DNA from: Pseudomonadota bacterium
GTDB lineage: Bacteria; Pseudomonadota; Gammaproteobacteria; Steroidobacterales; Woeseiaceae
Reading direction: 5' to 3'
Assembly (NCBI GenBank): GCA_027621915.1
Contig: JAQCAD010000024.1
Span: forward strand, 1 to 46,466
DNA length: 46,466 bases
Part shown: positions 5,135 through 11,002 of the stretch, piece by piece
Layout: each line of letters starts with the position of its first letter
Numbering within the stretch: position 1 is the first letter of the stretch
The notes under the pieces: model-generated
Told to the model about the DNA's origin: nothing
What the model saw: the letters and a program-made list of their open reading frames with translations, nothing else
The model's database searches: none
Program-made: the position numbers and the translations under genes

Positions 5135-5926
5135 GTGATTGTTGAACAGGTATGGGTCGGCAACGATTTTCGTAATTTTAACTACCTGATCGCCTGCGCC
5201 GAAACCGGAGAGGCGCTTGCCATCGACCCGCTCGACTTTCGTAAATGTCTGGCGGCGGCCGAGCGAAACGGCTGGGCAATTACGCAGATACTCAATACGC
5301 ATGAACACGGCGATCACACGGGCGGCAACAAGGGAATGGTTGCGGCCACCGGCGCGAAAGTCATTGCGCACGCAAATGCCGGTAACCGGATCCCAAACAT
5401 TGACCGAGGTGTGGGCGCAGGAGACATCATCAGCGTTGGCAAGTCAGTCGAGCTTGAATGTCTGGACACACCTGGCCACACGATGAGCCATATCTGCCTT
5501 CTGTCGCACACCGACCAGCCCGCCCTGTTCAGCGGCGACACGCTGTTTAACGCGGGTGCCGGCAACTGCCACAACGGCGGCCACCCGATAGAGCTGTACA
5601 ACACGTTTGCCAGCCAGCTCGATGAACTCGGGGACGATACCCTGCTCTATCCAGGTCACGACTACCTTAAGAACAATCTCGAATTTACACTCGATAGGGA
5701 ACCGGAAAACTCTGACGCACGGCAAATGCTGCTCGACTACGCAAACCAGGATCCGGAAACGGCACTGATTACTACGCTGGCCATGGAGCGGAAGATGAAT
5801 ACGTTTTTTCGACTGGATAGCCCGGACGTCGTTGCGAAACTCAAACGGGAATTTCCGGCATTGGGTGATGCGCCTTCACCGAGGGACATTTTCTTGAAAT
5901 TGCGTGAGCTTAGAAACAAATGGTAG
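5135..5926 (+). CDS. gloB: Hydroxyacylglutathione hydrolase (glyoxalase II)
   Basis: 263-residue metallo-beta-lactamase-fold enzyme that hydrolyses S-lactoylglutathione to lactate and glutathione, the second step of methylglyoxal detoxification. The binuclear metal motif THEHGDH lies at 55-61 (H56, H58, D60, H61). GHTMSH, SGDTLF and PGHDY follow at the expected spacing. Length matches GloB (about 250-260 residues). It starts with GTG, and the GAGGTG ribosome site overlaps the stop codon of the upstream amidohydrolase, which implies co-translation. It ends 4 bp from the convergent kinase gene, so little room remains for a terminator. No glyoxalase I was recognised nearby; the VOC gene at 39195 is not obviously one. 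Confidence 0.92.
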   Translation: MIVEQVWVGNDFRNFNYLIACAETGEALAIDPLDFRKCLAAAERNGWAITQILNTHEHGDHTGGNKGMVAATGAKVIAHANAGNRIPNIDRGVGAGDIISVGKSVELECLDTPGHTMSHICLLSHTDQPALFSGDTLFNAGAGNCHNGGHPIELYNTFASQLDELGDDTLLYPGHDYLKNNLEFTLDREPENSDARQMLLDYANQDPETALITTLAMERKMNTFFRLDSPDVVAKLKREFPALGDAPSPRDIFLKLRELRNKW

Positions 5927-5930
5927 CCGC

Positions 5931-6764
5931 TCAGCGAATTCTTTGTTGTAACTCTTCCAGTCGTCGCGCCTGTGCCGTGCTCGGAAAGACGAGATGACGG
6001 GAAGCCAGCCATAACCACTGGATAGCATCGTATACCCTGATCTGCTCGGCAAGCCGGTCAATGAGCTCTGCACCAGCCCCCCCGGCATAGGCATCGAGCA
6101 GGATCCTGGCATTTCGATCGTCCAGATTGTGAAAACCGATGGCAGATGCCAGATCGAACAAAGGATCATTGTCACAGGCGAATTCCCAGTCGATAAGCAT
6201 TAATGTCGAACTCTCGATTATATTCGCCGCAACAACATCGTTATGGCAACAAACGGAGTTGCCATGAACCGGCACGCTATTGATGACATCAACGCAATGA
6301 GTCGCGAACGCATGCAACCCATGCCGCCTTTCCAGGTAGTTTTCGTAATTCCGCGCGGCCCTGGCAACATCAAGTCGGTTCCCACAAAGCGGCAGCGCAT
6401 GAACTCTGCGCAAAAGCCCGGCGAGCGCTTCGAGCTTTTCCGGCGACCTGAGATCGGAAGCATCCCAGGCGCGGCCATGAACAAAGGTCATCACCAGAAT
6501 ACCGCGTTCTTTGTCAGCGTAAATCACCTTGGGAGCCAGCACGGCTTTGCCAGCGCGCTCCAGAATCAGCATTTCGCTCGTGCGATCAAACTGAAAAAAG
6601 CCTGCTTGCTGCGCGTCGAGGCGAAGGACATATTCACTTTCATCTCGCCGCACGTGATAGGTACGATTGGTCAGGCCACCTTTCAACTCCTGGACATCGC
6701 ACTCCGAGGCACTCCATCCCGGAACGAGGGCCAATGCTTCGAAGGCATTCAAATCTACGCTCAT
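5931..6764 (-). CDS. Choline/thiamine-kinase-like phosphotransferase, last gene of thiamine salvage operon
   Basis: 277-residue aminoglycoside phosphotransferase-fold kinase. Visible motifs are the catalytic loop HNDVVAAN (His174, Asp176, Asn181) and the metal-binding IDWEFA (Asp192, Glu194), both typical of the choline kinase/LicA/ThiK group. The ATG at 6764 overlaps the stop of the transporter gene (ATGA, 6761-6764), so the two are translationally coupled. Longer readings of the frame run back into the transporter gene and are unlikely. Being the last gene of a TPP-riboswitch operon, it most plausibly phosphorylates imported thiamine to thiamine monophosphate, as E. coli ThiK does. This is inference from context; a choline or other amino-alcohol substrate fits the sequence equally well. 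Confidence 0.8.
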   Translation of the reverse strand: MSVDLNAFEALALVPGWSASECDVQELKGGLTNRTYHVRRDESEYVLRLDAQQAGFFQFDRTSEMLILERAGKAVLAPKVIYADKERGILVMTFVHGRAWDASDLRSPEKLEALAGLLRRVHALPLCGNRLDVARAARNYENYLERRHGLHAFATHCVDVINSVPVHGNSVCCHNDVVAANIIESSTLMLIDWEFACDNDPLFDLASAIGFHNLDDRNARILLDAYAGGAGAELIDRLAEQIRVYDAIQWLWLASRHLVFPSTAQARRLEELQQRIR

Positions 6765-7381
6765 ACTCTCGCTGCAACCTCTTGATTCCGCCAGGATCGG
6801 GTCCAGGCTACCAGGCCAAACGGGATCAATATTACATACAACACAAAAAGCATGGACGTCAGCTCCAGTCCGCGGGACCAGTAAACCACGATCGATACAA
6901 TATCGATGACAAACCAGTACCACCAGTTTTCCAGGACTTTCCTGGCAATCAGAAACGTCGACCAGATCGCAGCAAAAGTCGTTGCGGAATCGACGTAGGG
7001 AAACGCCGCGTCCGTATAGCGGGTTAGCAAGAATCCAGAGCCCAAAGCCAGGATCACAATTGCTCCCAAAGCGATTGCATGGGTCTTCGGCGTGTAAGTG
7101 GTGACCGGAATTTTTTTCGCACCGCCAGTGTCAGACGTCCACACAGACCAGCCATAAATTGCCATTGCAAAATAGAACAGGTTGAGCGCCGACTCCATAT
7201 ATAACTTTGCATCAAAGTACAGATAGACATATATCGCCGTGCTGATTCCGGCACAAAACCAGCACCATATGCTCTCGCGGATTGCCAGCAGCAGATATAG
7301 AACCGCAAAACATACAGCGATAATTTCACTCGGCGTCCATGTGCTGAGATCTGACAGAAGCTCGGAAATCGACGATGCCAT
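6761..7381 (-). CDS. pnuT: PnuC-family vitamin transporter, probably thiamine-specific (PnuT)
   Basis: 206-residue integral membrane protein of the PnuC facilitator family with about seven hydrophobic segments and tryptophan-rich signatures (YGWSVW near 75; ENWWYW near 150). PnuC proteins move vitamin precursors across the inner membrane by facilitated diffusion, with trapping by cytoplasmic phosphorylation. The thiamine assignment rests on context: it sits in a TPP-riboswitch operon behind a receptor and a thiamine-binding protein, and overlaps the gene of a small-molecule kinase that could do the trapping. Nicotinamide riboside as substrate cannot be excluded from sequence alone. It starts 9 bp after the stop of the upstream gene. 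Confidence 0.85.
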   Translation of the reverse strand: MASSISELLSDLSTWTPSEIIAVCFAVLYLLLAIRESIWCWFCAGISTAIYVYLYFDAKLYMESALNLFYFAMAIYGWSVWTSDTGGAKKIPVTTYTPKTHAIALGAIVILALGSGFLLTRYTDAAFPYVDSATTFAAIWSTFLIARKVLENWWYWFVIDIVSIVVYWSRGLELTSMLFVLYVILIPFGLVAWTRSWRNQEVAARV

Positions 7382-7390
7382 GACGTTTTA

Positions 7391-7639
7391 TCAGTCACCG
7401 TGCGGGTTGTTCAGGATTTTTATTGCGAAGACCGCTTTCGGCAGCTTTTCGAACGTCGTGCCGATTTCTTTGTGCAAGGCAGTCATCACGTCGTTGTATT
7501 CGCCGCGGATTTGGGTACTCATTGAATTAGTAGTTACTTCAATCGACGGGTGAGAATTCAGACGCCCGATCACGTCGTCAATCGGTGGAATAAAATTCGC
7601 GTCCAATGGATAAAGACTGATATCAACTGCCACACGCAT
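7391..7639 (-). CDS. MTH1187/YkoF-type thiamine-binding protein
   Basis: 82-residue protein of the thiamine-binding MTH1187 family (formerly DUF77). The sequence follows the family pattern: an ISLYPL strand at the N-terminus, a TNSMSTQIRGE core near residue 40 and a KAVFAIKI strand near the C-terminus. Related proteins are small ferredoxin-like oligomers that bind thiamine or its precursors (YkoF binds HMP and thiamine). No signal peptide is seen, so it is probably cytoplasmic. The start lies 2 bp after the stop of the receptor gene, within the same riboswitch-controlled operon. Its role may be to buffer thiamine or pass it to the kinase; that part is inference. Confidence 0.83.
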   Translation of the reverse strand: MRVAVDISLYPLDANFIPPIDDVIGRLNSHPSIEVTTNSMSTQIRGEYNDVMTALHKEIGTTFEKLPKAVFAIKILNNPHGD

Positions 7640-7641
7640 CG

Positions 7642-9744
7642 TTAAAACCTCATATCGAATGAAACGCCAGCCTGGCGCGGATCGCCCTGGCGAATATATA
7701 GCGTCGGTGGAAAATTCGGCGGTTCATTGCCAAAGTAAAAGCCGCGGACAGCATAATGTTCATCGAAAATATTTCGAACCCATAGTTGCGCCGTCCATCG
7801 TTCCGCCTCATACCCAAGGCGCGCGTTCGCCAATGAATAGGGTTCGGAAACCTGATTATGCGAAACGTCGAAATAGAATTCATCTTTTGCCGAGAAATCG
7901 ATGCGGGCAAAAACACCAGACGTGTGACGATATACGCCACCAATTGCGATCGTGTAATTCGGCGCATGTGCCTGGTCACGGCCGTTTATGCTGACCTGTG
8001 GAGTTACAAATTCTTCGAATTCTGCGTTTAGCAATCCAACACTCGCGTGCAACTCCAACGTTTCACTCGGATACCAGCGAATATCCGCTTCCAGGCCGAT
8101 GGTCCGGCCCTCGGCTGCATTGTCCGTAAAGAAAACGAAGGACGCCGGATCGTTCGGGTCTATCTGAAATGACGTCTCGACCTGTTGGTTCTTTCTCACG
8201 CTATAGAAAATCGTCCCGCCAAGATGCAATCGGTCGTCGAAGGATTTCGTTTTGACGCCGATATCTATATTCCACATTGATTCCGCACCGAATTCACGAC
8301 GTCCCGCGGGTACGAGTCCGAGATTGAACCCGCCGGCTTTATAACCGCGTGACAATGTGGCAAATCCAGTCGAGGTATCATTGAATTCGTGTGCGTACCC
8401 CAACTCCCCTCCGGCCATGTTCTCCGATGGGCTGAGGTCAAGCCCTCCGGAATCACGGTAATCTACCTCCCGGCGTTCCGCTCGAACGCCGAGCGTCAGT
8501 CTTCCTGACTCACTGACGGCCTTCTCCAGCTGGCCGAATACGGCGGTGCTGAAGGCTTCAAAATCACTATTGAGCTGGTCGTCCAGCGAATCTGAGAAAT
8601 TGGATGCCGGATCGAAATAGTCTCCCCGGTTTGTTGTAACGAGATCTTCAGCCGTTTTATTCATGTAGAAACCGATAATCCAGTCCGTCGTTTTATTGAA
8701 TATCCGGCCCGCCTCTTTGGAAATGAATCGCATCTCCCGGTTCAACGTCATACGTTGTCGATCATTTAATGAAACGTAGTTGTAAAGAATCGGCGACCAG
8801 GCCCCGTCATTGCCCCAGTCGGCGTCAAATGAGAAATCGATATCGGAGTCCACCACTGACGTGACGGACGTGGCTTTGAATTTGTTGCTGCCGTCCCAGT
8901 CAATATTGAAAGATGCGCCGAGGCTTTTTTGCATGTCTTTGCCAGGTTTGTCGGACAACACCGTGAGGCTGTTGTCGATCGCAAATGCATCGTAGCCATC
9001 AGCCACATCGATCAGCATGCCGGTTAATTTGAACGACCAGTTGTCGCCAGCGCTCCAGACGTACCGTCCTCGCAACGACGTCTCATCCCTGCCGTTGGTA
9101 TCCTTACGGCCGAGATAGGAATTATTGCGAAAACCATTGCTCTCATAATGATGTGCGCTGATACGATAGCCTCCGTTGCCCGCAGGCCCACCTAACGCAA
9201 TGCCGCCGCCAATGGTGTTATCGTCTCCGGCCAGCAGATTCAGGCGACCGGAAAATGACTTTCCCGGGTCGGTACTCTGAATGTATATGAGGCCTGCGAG
9301 CGCGTTGGCGCCATACCGGGTTCCCTGTGGTCCGCGCAAAATCTCGATACGATCGATATCGAATAGCGTCGCAATGCCGCCGATGCCACTGAAGTCGATA
9401 TCGTCTACAACAAATCCCACGGAAGGGTTTGGCGCCCCTTGATATTGGGCAAGCTCCCCCACACCACGAATCTGGAGATATTTCGCGCGATGACCATCGC
9501 CGGACCAGTTAAGGTTCGGCAGGCTGCCGATCAGCTCCTCGAAATGTTGCACCGCCGTTGCCGATATTGTTTCCGCATCGAGAATGGTAATGCTCGCAGG
9601 CATTTCTGCAGCGGGCCGGCCACGGTAGTCAGCGGTAACGACAATTTCAACGACAGGTTCGCTGTCCTGGCTGAATGTGTCTAAAGGCAAGCAGGCACAC
9701 AACGCGACCAGGCTTGATCGCGATAAGTGTCTGGCTGAATCCAT
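7642..9744 (-). CDS. TonB-dependent outer-membrane receptor, predicted thiamine uptake
   Basis: 700-residue TonB-dependent receptor. In order: a signal peptide ending near SFSQ, a TonB box-like EIVVTA near 33-38, a plug domain (about 45-160) with RIEILRGPQGTRYGANALAG, and a 22-strand barrel ending in the terminal aromatic RF typical of outer-membrane proteins. It is the first gene after a TPP riboswitch, so its expression should fall when thiamine diphosphate is plentiful, and its ligand is probably thiamine or a phosphorylated form. Riboswitch-linked receptors of this kind (called OMR1 in comparative genomics of thiamine metabolism) are known in gammaproteobacteria. The ribosome-binding site AGAGGA lies directly at the 3' edge of the riboswitch. 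Confidence 0.88.
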   Translation of the reverse strand: MDSARHLSRSSLVALCACLPLDTFSQDSEPVVEIVVTADYRGRPAAEMPASITILDAETISATAVQHFEELIGSLPNLNWSGDGHRAKYLQIRGVGELAQYQGAPNPSVGFVVDDIDFSGIGGIATLFDIDRIEILRGPQGTRYGANALAGLIYIQSTDPGKSFSGRLNLLAGDDNTIGGGIALGGPAGNGGYRISAHHYESNGFRNNSYLGRKDTNGRDETSLRGRYVWSAGDNWSFKLTGMLIDVADGYDAFAIDNSLTVLSDKPGKDMQKSLGASFNIDWDGSNKFKATSVTSVVDSDIDFSFDADWGNDGAWSPILYNYVSLNDRQRMTLNREMRFISKEAGRIFNKTTDWIIGFYMNKTAEDLVTTNRGDYFDPASNFSDSLDDQLNSDFEAFSTAVFGQLEKAVSESGRLTLGVRAERREVDYRDSGGLDLSPSENMAGGELGYAHEFNDTSTGFATLSRGYKAGGFNLGLVPAGRREFGAESMWNIDIGVKTKSFDDRLHLGGTIFYSVRKNQQVETSFQIDPNDPASFVFFTDNAAEGRTIGLEADIRWYPSETLELHASVGLLNAEFEEFVTPQVSINGRDQAHAPNYTIAIGGVYRHTSGVFARIDFSAKDEFYFDVSHNQVSEPYSLANARLGYEAERWTAQLWVRNIFDEHYAVRGFYFGNEPPNFPPTLYIRQGDPRQAGVSFDMRF

Positions 9745-9754
9745 CGGGAAATCC

Positions 9755-9857
9755 TCTTCCTACGCCGGCATTACCCGGATCAGGTGCTAGGGTTCCCGTT
9801 GCGGTACGTCTGTCCAGTCGCACCAAGGATCTCAGGTCATTCTGACCACCCCTGTGA
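9755..9857 (-). promoter_or_regulatory. TPP riboswitch (THI-box)
   Basis: Read on the minus strand, the conserved TPP aptamer parts appear in order: GGGGTG near 9852, CTGAGAT near 9830-9836, then ACCTGATCCGGGTAATGCC near 9769-9787 followed by GGCGTAGGAAG. These are the pyrimidine-binding and pyrophosphate-binding arms of the THI-box. The aptamer ends about 10 nt before the start codon of the receptor gene, and the AGAGGA ribosome site falls within or against the closing helix. Control is therefore likely translational, by sequestering the ribosome site on TPP binding. I see no separate terminator hairpin with a U run in the short 3' expression platform. Confidence 0.95.
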
Positions 9858-9865
9858 TGTGCGGA

Positions 9866-9871
9866 ACTATA
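9866..9871 (-). promoter_or_regulatory. Probable -10 box of the thiamine operon
   Basis: On the minus strand TATAGT differs from the consensus TATAAT at one position. A transcript starting about 7 nt downstream, near 9858, would begin just at the 5' edge of the riboswitch aptamer, which is what a riboswitch leader requires. The -35 region about 17 nt upstream is weak, so a regulator or an extended promoter may contribute. Confidence 0.5.
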
Positions 9872-9926: not shown

Positions 9927-10176
9927 AGCCGCGCGATAAGACTGGAAGTGTCCCCAATCCGCCTGCGATCTCATTAACCAGGCACCGACGAATGCGGATT
10001 GATCTTTAGTGCATCAATCGATCAGGGAGCCTTTTCAAGCCGCGCGATAAGACTGGAGGTGTCCCCAATCCGCCTGCGATCTCATTAACCAGGCACCGAC
10101 GAATGCGGATTGATCTTTAGTGCATCAATCGATCAGGGAGCCTTTTCAAGCCGCGCGATAAGACTGGAAGTGTCCC
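9927..10176. repeat. 111-bp tandem direct repeat, 2.25 copies
   Basis: Two full 111-bp units (9927-10037 and 10038-10148) are followed by a 28-bp partial copy (10149-10176) inside the 3' end of the downstream dehydrogenase gene. The two full units differ at one position that I can see (ACTGGAAG versus ACTGGAGG). Each unit carries the last codons of that gene, including its TGA, plus the 3' flank. The array therefore arose by tandem duplication of the gene's tail. Each unit also contains a GATTGAT/ATCAATC hairpin (for example 10108-10130) and a longer-range CAATCCGC/GCGGATTG pair (10066-10073 with 10105-10112). Confidence 0.95.
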
Positions 10177-11002
10177 ACCGCTGCCCGCCCATCTCCTGCA
10201 CCTCGGCATAATATCCGTCCACCAAACGGGTCATGTCCAGCTTCGCGCCGTTTCTCCCGGCTTCTTCGATCGCAATTTTCAGATCCTTGCGCATCCACTC
10301 GACGGCAAAGCCGAACTCGAAGTCATTGTTGACCATCGTTCGCCAACGATTTTCCATTTGCCATGATTGCGCAGCGCCCTTCGAAATGGCTTCGATCACT
10401 TTCGTCGTATCGAGATTCGCGCATTTCGCGAAGTGCAGCGCCTCTGACAATCCCTGCACGATGCCCGCGATACAGATCTGATTGACCATTTTCGCGAGTT
10501 GACCTGAGCCAACCGGCCCGATCAACGTGATGGCCCTGGCGTAACAATCCATTACCGGCCTGGCGATTTCGAAAACAGAATCATCGCCGCCAACCATGAT
10601 GGTCAACTGGCCGTTTTCTGCACCAGCCTGCCCACCGGACAAGGGCGCATCGAGAAAGCCGACGTTCTTCTCGCTTGCCGCGTCGGCAACTTCACGTGCG
10701 ACAAGAGCCGATGCCGTCGTGTGGTCGACGATCACACTACCATCTGGAATTCCGGCAAGCACTCCATCGTCCTCCAGGATTACGGCGCGAACGTCCTCGT
10801 CATTGCCGACACAACAGAAGACAATTTGTGCTGTCTCGGCAGCGACAGCGGGCGTAGCCGCACTGGTGCCACTGAATTTCTCACACCACTGGTCTGCCTT
10901 CGCGCTGGTCCGATTGAATACAGTGACTTCATGCCCGGCCTTCCTGAGATATCCCGCCATTGGATACCCCATTACACCGAGACCGACAAATGCGACTCGC
11001 AT
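10133..11002 (-). CDS. 3-hydroxyisobutyrate dehydrogenase family oxidoreductase
   Basis: 289-residue beta-hydroxyacid dehydrogenase. It has the Rossmann motif GLGVMG at 7-12, the substrate-binding segment DAPLSGGQAGAENG at 118-131, and Lys171 in GSGQLAKMVNQ, the position of the catalytic lysine in this family. Substrates in the family include 3-hydroxyisobutyrate (valine degradation), tartronate semialdehyde and succinic semialdehyde. The acyl-CoA operon context favours 3-hydroxyisobutyrate (MmsB), but no methylmalonate-semialdehyde dehydrogenase is adjacent. It is the last gene of the operon, 113 bp after the acyl-CoA dehydrogenase. Its final codons are the source of the tandem repeat downstream. 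The array has not altered the encoded C-terminus. Confidence 0.85.
   Translation of the reverse strand: MRVAFVGLGVMGYPMAGYLRKAGHEVTVFNRTSAKADQWCEKFSGTSAATPAVAAETAQIVFCCVGNDEDVRAVILEDDGVLAGIPDGSVIVDHTTASALVAREVADAASEKNVGFLDAPLSGGQAGAENGQLTIMVGGDDSVFEIARPVMDCYARAITLIGPVGSGQLAKMVNQICIAGIVQGLSEALHFAKCANLDTTKVIEAISKGAAQSWQMENRWRTMVNNDFEFGFAVEWMRKDLKIAIEEAGRNGAKLDMTRLVDGYYAEVQEMGGQRWDTSSLIARLEKAP

Follow-up and report, generated by a model that had tools for sequence, protein, structure and literature searches.

A probable thiamine salvage operon with a predicted TPP riboswitch and a probable thiamine kinase in a Woeseiaceae bacterium

The stretch of DNA analysed here (46,466 nt, hereafter the window) very probably carries a thiamine salvage operon of a Woeseiaceae bacterium that probably cannot make thiamine itself. 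A kinase encoded at the end of the operon would trap thiamine as thiamine monophosphate (TMP), and ThiL, encoded elsewhere in the genome, would finish the conversion to TPP. The source genome is a draft of 3.56 Mb in 101 contigs (the operon lies on contig C18) that is 95.14% complete, and therefore the absence of any single gene is not certain.

All parts of the operon lie on the minus strand. A TPP riboswitch aptamer (THI element, 9740..9863; RF00059, 53.9 bits, E 5.7e-10, complete over model positions 1-105) is followed by a TonB-dependent outer-membrane receptor that is OMthi/omr1-like by context (7642..9744; Plug domain PF07715, 59.7 bits, E 4.6e-16), a putative small thiamine-binding protein of the YkoF/MTH1187 type (7391..7639; PF01910, 27.3 bits vs a cut-off of 24.9, and PF07615, 21.9 bits, both narrowly above cut-off), a PnuT-type inner-membrane transporter (6761..7381; PF04973, NMN_transporter, 166.2 bits) and an APH-fold kinase that is probably a thiamine kinase (5931..6764; APH PF01636, 85 bits; Choline_kinase PF01633, 65.8 bits). 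The junctions are +2 between receptor and binding protein, +9 between binding protein and transporter and -4 between transporter and kinase, the last with the kinase start taken as the ATG at 6764, which gives a 4-base overlap. The coordinates, the Pfam matches and a relaxed Rfam match thus confirm the order and the junctions given in the preliminary description. Since the same order recurs in relatives, it is not due to chance. A consensus scan of the operon strand detected neither a sigma-70 promoter nor a terminator; as both counts were lower than in shuffled sequences, this result carries little weight. The operon is flanked by a glyoxalase-II-like gene behind it (5135-5926) and a dehydrogenase-like gene before it (10133-11002), which recur at matching positions in many Woeseiaceae loci. 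Just upstream of the riboswitch lies a 111-bp tandem repeat (9927-10176, 2.3 copies, 98% matches) that overlaps the final bases of the dehydrogenase-like gene.

Conservation was followed in 60 genomes, comprising the source genome, 36 others of its family (f1, Woeseiaceae) and 23 of the same order. A PnuC-family gene occurs in 47 of the 60, and directly behind it the kinase is encoded in 45 of these 47, with the same 4-base overlap in 29 of the 45, a count that rests on the chosen start codons. The receptor lies upstream on the same contig in 44/47, and a binding protein was identified in 34/47. Kinases are missing in two cases: in G029 the contig ends within the transporter, and G051 encodes a PnuC-like protein that is 34% identical, in a genome that has ThiC and ThiE. 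The 10.5 kb around the G051 transporter yielded no receptor, binding protein or kinase, and its genome gave no TPP match; the G051 gene is probably a true PnuC and serves as a natural control. TPP matches are present in 43/60 genomes (above the gathering score in 39/60), and 43 of the 44 matches fall in operon loci, the window included. Five of the 47 transporter-bearing genomes have no TPP match, namely G051 and four genomes (G006, G011, G026 and G028) with contigs that break off within or beside the operon. Two loci (L081 and L085) combine a TPP match with a receptor or receptor fragment and have no transporter. Genome G023 has a second TPP match at C3:1934-2057, outside the operon stretch.

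Within family f1 the transporter is present in 33/37 genomes. The transporter was unmatched in four f1 genomes (G003, G010, G012 and G016), among which G010 carries a TPP element ahead of a receptor fragment. Genome G012 (94% complete) encodes ThiL and gave no match to the transporter, the TPP element, ThiC, ThiE or the ThiK model.

A scan of named genomes with the transporter alignment confirmed at least 563 relatives, of which the best 80 were kept, some from the same genomes as in the 60-genome set. Among these best 80 loci, the kinase follows the transporter in 71 (70/78 where at least 600 nt are available downstream), a receptor stands ahead of the transporter in 75, and 61 loci yielded a binding protein. 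A THI motif, sought as a regular expression, is present upstream in 66 of the 80 (62/69 where at least 2.9 kb are available upstream). Kinase-bearing loci of this set come from records titled Shewanella, Thalassolituus, Colwellia, Porticoccus, Pseudomaricurvus, Aestuariicella and Wenzhouxiangella. The pairing of PnuT with the kinase, for which the preliminary description had asked whether it always holds, is thus usual in the relatives and in the best named loci, and not invariable. Of the 78 PnuT loci that extend far enough downstream, eight lack the kinase (L140, L144, L146, L153, L162, L163, L164 and L167), and in L140, titled Latescibacteria, the other operon parts are absent too. The remaining seven have a TPP-controlled receptor and PnuT with no kinase behind them, and two of these are titled SAR86 cluster. 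On inspection, the forward frames just downstream of PnuT in the eight loci showed no obvious pyrophosphokinase, and a relaxed kinase search gave weak matches only, in L144, L163 and L164 (best E 0.002). In three other loci (L137, L152 and L159) a further THI motif stands behind the kinase together with three long frames. In L152, the one of the three that was scanned, these frames encode ThiC, an FAD-dependent oxidoreductase and ThiG; therefore the salvage operon can adjoin synthesis genes.

The riboswitch is the sole TPP match in the source genome (RF00059, E 1.2e-9 against the whole genome). It reaches 53.9 of the 54.3 bits of the gathering score with an intact core, and because it falls 0.4 bits short, a default Rfam scan of the window lists nothing; the aptamer was found by a local covariance-model search at a relaxed threshold. 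Folded alone, the leader does not reproduce the aptamer (z -1.26; 24/200 shuffles fold equally well). From the sequence match the aptamer is predicted to bind TPP and control the following gene, and the direction of this control is our inference. In the cmscan alignment two of the five P1 pairs are non-standard and the helix is weak here. The 3' strand of P1 reads GAGGA (9752..9756, minus strand, thus running from 9756 to 9752) and stands seven bases ahead of the receptor ATG, so that by sequence and alignment it is also the likely Shine-Dalgarno sequence of the receptor. Receptor starts could be measured behind 41 of the 43 riboswitches of operon loci. They lie 7-13 nt past the conserved CGxAGGRA in 31/41, with GAGGA at that place in 20 of those 31, and 50-165 nt past it in 10/41. 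All 10 long spacings are outside family f1, and the 31 short spacings comprise 29 from f1 and two from other families (L041 and L071). Given the short spacing in f1, the ribosome-binding site of the receptor seems to be part of the aptamer there, and it appears that in the Woeseiaceae family TPP would hide this site directly, via P1.

The transporter passes not only the Pfam family model but also the PnuC equivalog TIGR01528 (71.9 bits vs a cut-off of 42.45), and therefore automatic naming calls it PnuC. It combines membership of the PnuC-fold family (PF04973) with a thiamine context (TPP element, thiamine enzymes). It probably carries thiamine rather than nicotinamide riboside, as predicted from this genomic context. 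An Asp at position 160 of the operon transporter, where solved PnuC has Asn, was considered as a marker between PnuT and PnuC and rejected, since the PnuC-like protein of G051 has Asp too.

The small binding protein does not reach the narrower MTH1187 model (TIGR00106, 18.5 of 54.7 bits). A single-sequence search against solved structures gave E 0.28 only and a family profile was needed, which matched YkoF (E 1.2e-9) and also SP2199 and MJ1052. Its predicted structure (pLDDT 92.5) matches MJ1052, SP2199, TM0486 and MTH1187 (1lxn, E 5.0e-5) and, more weakly, thiamin-bound YkoF (1sbr, E 3.7e-3). That it buffers thiamine in the cytoplasm is a guess.

The argument for the substrate of the kinase comes from the pathway. 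ThiL converts TMP to TPP, and the thiL that the preliminary description expected elsewhere in the genome is present away from the operon (320.6 bits). The genome was searched with profiles for ThiL, ThiC, ThiE/TenI, ThiM, thiamine pyrophosphokinase (TPK) and the ThiK model. No match was found to ThiC, ThiE/TenI, ThiM or TPK, and each of these families was found in control genomes; the genome searches suggested in that description are among those run. The ThiK model matches one place, the operon kinase, and the PnuC family one place, the operon transporter. Without ThiE, TMP must arise from thiamine via a kinase or enter the cell as TMP, and because ThiC, ThiE, ThiM and TPK are unmatched, ThiL has no visible source of TMP other than the operon kinase. 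The operon kinase as the probable maker of TMP is the simplest reading of this gene content, and that it phosphorylates thiamine to TMP is supported by pathway logic. The same logic supports the earlier reading, in which thiamine would be trapped as TMP and ThiL elsewhere would take the final step. A complete set of thiamine synthesis genes under other regulation, named in the preliminary description as evidence against this reading, was not what we found, as no such set was detected and the predicted regulation is by a TPP element.

In the 60-genome set, ThiL is over cut-off in 54/60 genomes, ThiC is found in 6/60 and some ThiE/TenI match in 11/60, and none of the 60 has a TPK match. In family f1 no genome has a ThiC match (0/37), and ThiE/TenI gave weak matches in two genomes, one of 23.7 bits in G003, which is under the cut-off, and a partial one of 31.4 bits in G036, which is over it. 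Two other activities of the kinase can be weighed against these data. Instead of thiamine, the kinase could act on HMP or hydroxyethylthiazole, as precursors or degradation products of the vitamin, and the use of such B1 precursors and breakdown products has been reported for marine bacteria (PMC10470507). ThiE would still be needed to join both halves, however, and the genome has no ThiE match, which makes this activity very unlikely. Alternatively, the kinase could transfer pyrophosphate and make TPP in one step, like thiamine pyrophosphokinases. APH-fold kinases transfer single phosphates, and ThiL would be needless in that case, yet it is present here and in most relatives. Although the genome has no TPK family member and the same slot in Bacteroidetes operons is taken by tnr3, called thiamine pyrophosphorylase in the text drawn on (PMC5613172), we regard a pyrophosphokinase activity as extremely improbable.

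The kinase is predicted with high confidence (pLDDT 94.3) to have the APH fold with intact catalytic residues, and His174, Asp176, Asn181, Asp192, Glu194 and Trp252 are identical in 44/44 operon kinases. It scores 101.5 bits against the thiK model TIGR02721, under the equivalog cut-off of 299.45, which none of the 60 relatives reaches (0/60). Because it is below this cut-off it is not filed as ThiK, and it may nevertheless function as ThiK does. The best-scoring NCBIfam model is GntI (pre-guanitoxin N-oxide kinase of guanitoxin biosynthesis; 134.3 of the cut-off 357 bits). All 37 members of kinase alignment A4 match both the ThiK and the GntI models at E 0.001 or better, and the operon kinase and GntI may share ancestry.

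Among solved structures, both the profile search (4r77, E 1.5e-35) and the fold comparison (4r7b, with choline, E 5.5e-15) rank choline kinases best, with LicA in first place. The caution of the preliminary description about the specificity of the kinase therefore stands. These relatives and the Choline_kinase match would fit a LicA-like choline or ethanolamine kinase that is co-transcribed with thiamine uptake genes by happenstance. Such a kinase would, however, sit behind a TPP element in a conserved place after the transporter, and it would leave the ThiL of the genome without a visible source of TMP. LicD, the one possible user of phosphocholine that was searched for, is moreover unmatched in the genome and occurs in 2/60 relatives. 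The structural resemblance itself does not separate thiamine from choline, because the solved matches listed include no APH-fold thiamine kinase for which the comparison might have spoken. We therefore consider a choline or ethanolamine kinase unlikely and retain thiamine as the probable substrate.

In the wider class, the kinase profile has 21 matches at E 1e-15 or better, spread over 17/274 genomes. Seven of these matches adjoin a PnuT-type transporter, and two of the other 14 loci end at a contig edge. As the wider family is mostly not beside PnuT, its context does not tie it to thiamine, and our inference is limited to the operon members. In a kinase tree rooted on one sequence, 8 of the 12 kinases that are not adjacent to PnuT fall near the base, and L171, L173, L185 and L186 nest among the operon kinases; our reading of specificity does not draw on this tree. 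We think it reasonably likely, taking both parts together, that the operon kinases constitute a widespread thiamine-kinase lineage below the ThiK cut-off that has no name as yet and would be the only route to TMP in Woeseiaceae, where none of the 37 genomes searched has a ThiC match, and that the TPP riboswitch there has no separate expression platform, the P1 strand itself being the receptor's ribosome-binding site.

The cycle that we infer would run as follows, where thiamine as substrate for receptor, transporter and kinase, the regulatory direction, the masking of the ribosome-binding site and the buffering are all part of the inference. At low TPP, P1 would be open and GAGGA free as a ribosome-binding site, so that the receptor is translated, and the three downstream genes would be carried along through their close junctions. 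The receptor would pass thiamine across the outer membrane, PnuT would equilibrate it over the inner membrane and the small binding protein would perhaps buffer it in the cytoplasm. The kinase would then phosphorylate thiamine to TMP, which should not exit via PnuT; the Shewanella woodyi PnuT protein, in a study of its facilitated diffusion, reportedly does not carry phosphorylated thiamine. ThiL would make TPP, and TPP would close the switch. The operon would be a simple genetic case of diffuse-and-trap uptake. On this reading, a kinase labelled by family models as aminoglycoside phosphotransferase or choline kinase acquires a probable substrate, and a transporter automatically named PnuC acquires a probable role with thiamine. 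The distribution of ThiC implies that the Woeseiaceae family depends on the B1 of its neighbours.

Several parts of this system have counterparts in the literature. Gammaproteobacteria, Cellvibrionales foremost, have been described as B1 consumers via omr1, and Cellvibrionales, in the sections of the source used, as having no thiE (PMC12442306). A survey of Shewanella reported that thiamine riboswitches govern synthesis genes or uptake transporters (PMC3223726), and Shewanella SO2713 has been listed as pnuT, a predicted thiamin transporter (PMC5955497). Our literature search found no paper linking Woeseia, thiamin and auxotroph. None found on PnuT and thiamine kinase named the operon kinase, in a search that subscription papers mostly fell outside, and neither did the accessible parts of the regulon papers.

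The E. coli thiamine kinase ThiK (YcfN) has the APH fold and shares the HxDVxAxN and LIDWE motifs with the operon kinase. It differs in sequence, with 28% identity over 216 aligned positions, and in context, since thiK adjoins lpoB and nagZ and no transporter. The LicA choline kinase (PDB 4r77, 4r78 and 4r7b) is the best solved fold match and has the same catalytic core, whereas identity in the fold alignment is only 21-22% and the operon context here is that of thiamine. A locus of Shewanella sp. (L142) repeats the operon's arrangement, from THI motif and receptor through binding protein and transporter to APH-fold kinase, but its kinase is 359 aa long and scores only 35.6 bits against the ThiK model.

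The closest described system is that of gut Bacteroidetes, where OMthi, pnuT and tnr3 are TPP-controlled and mostly form one operon, and where thiamine transport by PnuT was demonstrated in E. coli (PMC5613172). Both systems combine a TPP riboswitch, an outer-membrane receptor, PnuT and a thiamine-phosphorylating enzyme, which in our case is the predicted one. In the Bacteroidetes operons, as far as the cited text goes, tnr3 makes TPP in one step (PMC5613172), whereas here an APH-fold kinase is combined with a ThiL encoded elsewhere and an extra small binding protein is present. The operon would work like those of Bacteroidetes and is of a general kind already described, with a kinase-plus-ThiL route replacing the single pyrophosphokinase step.
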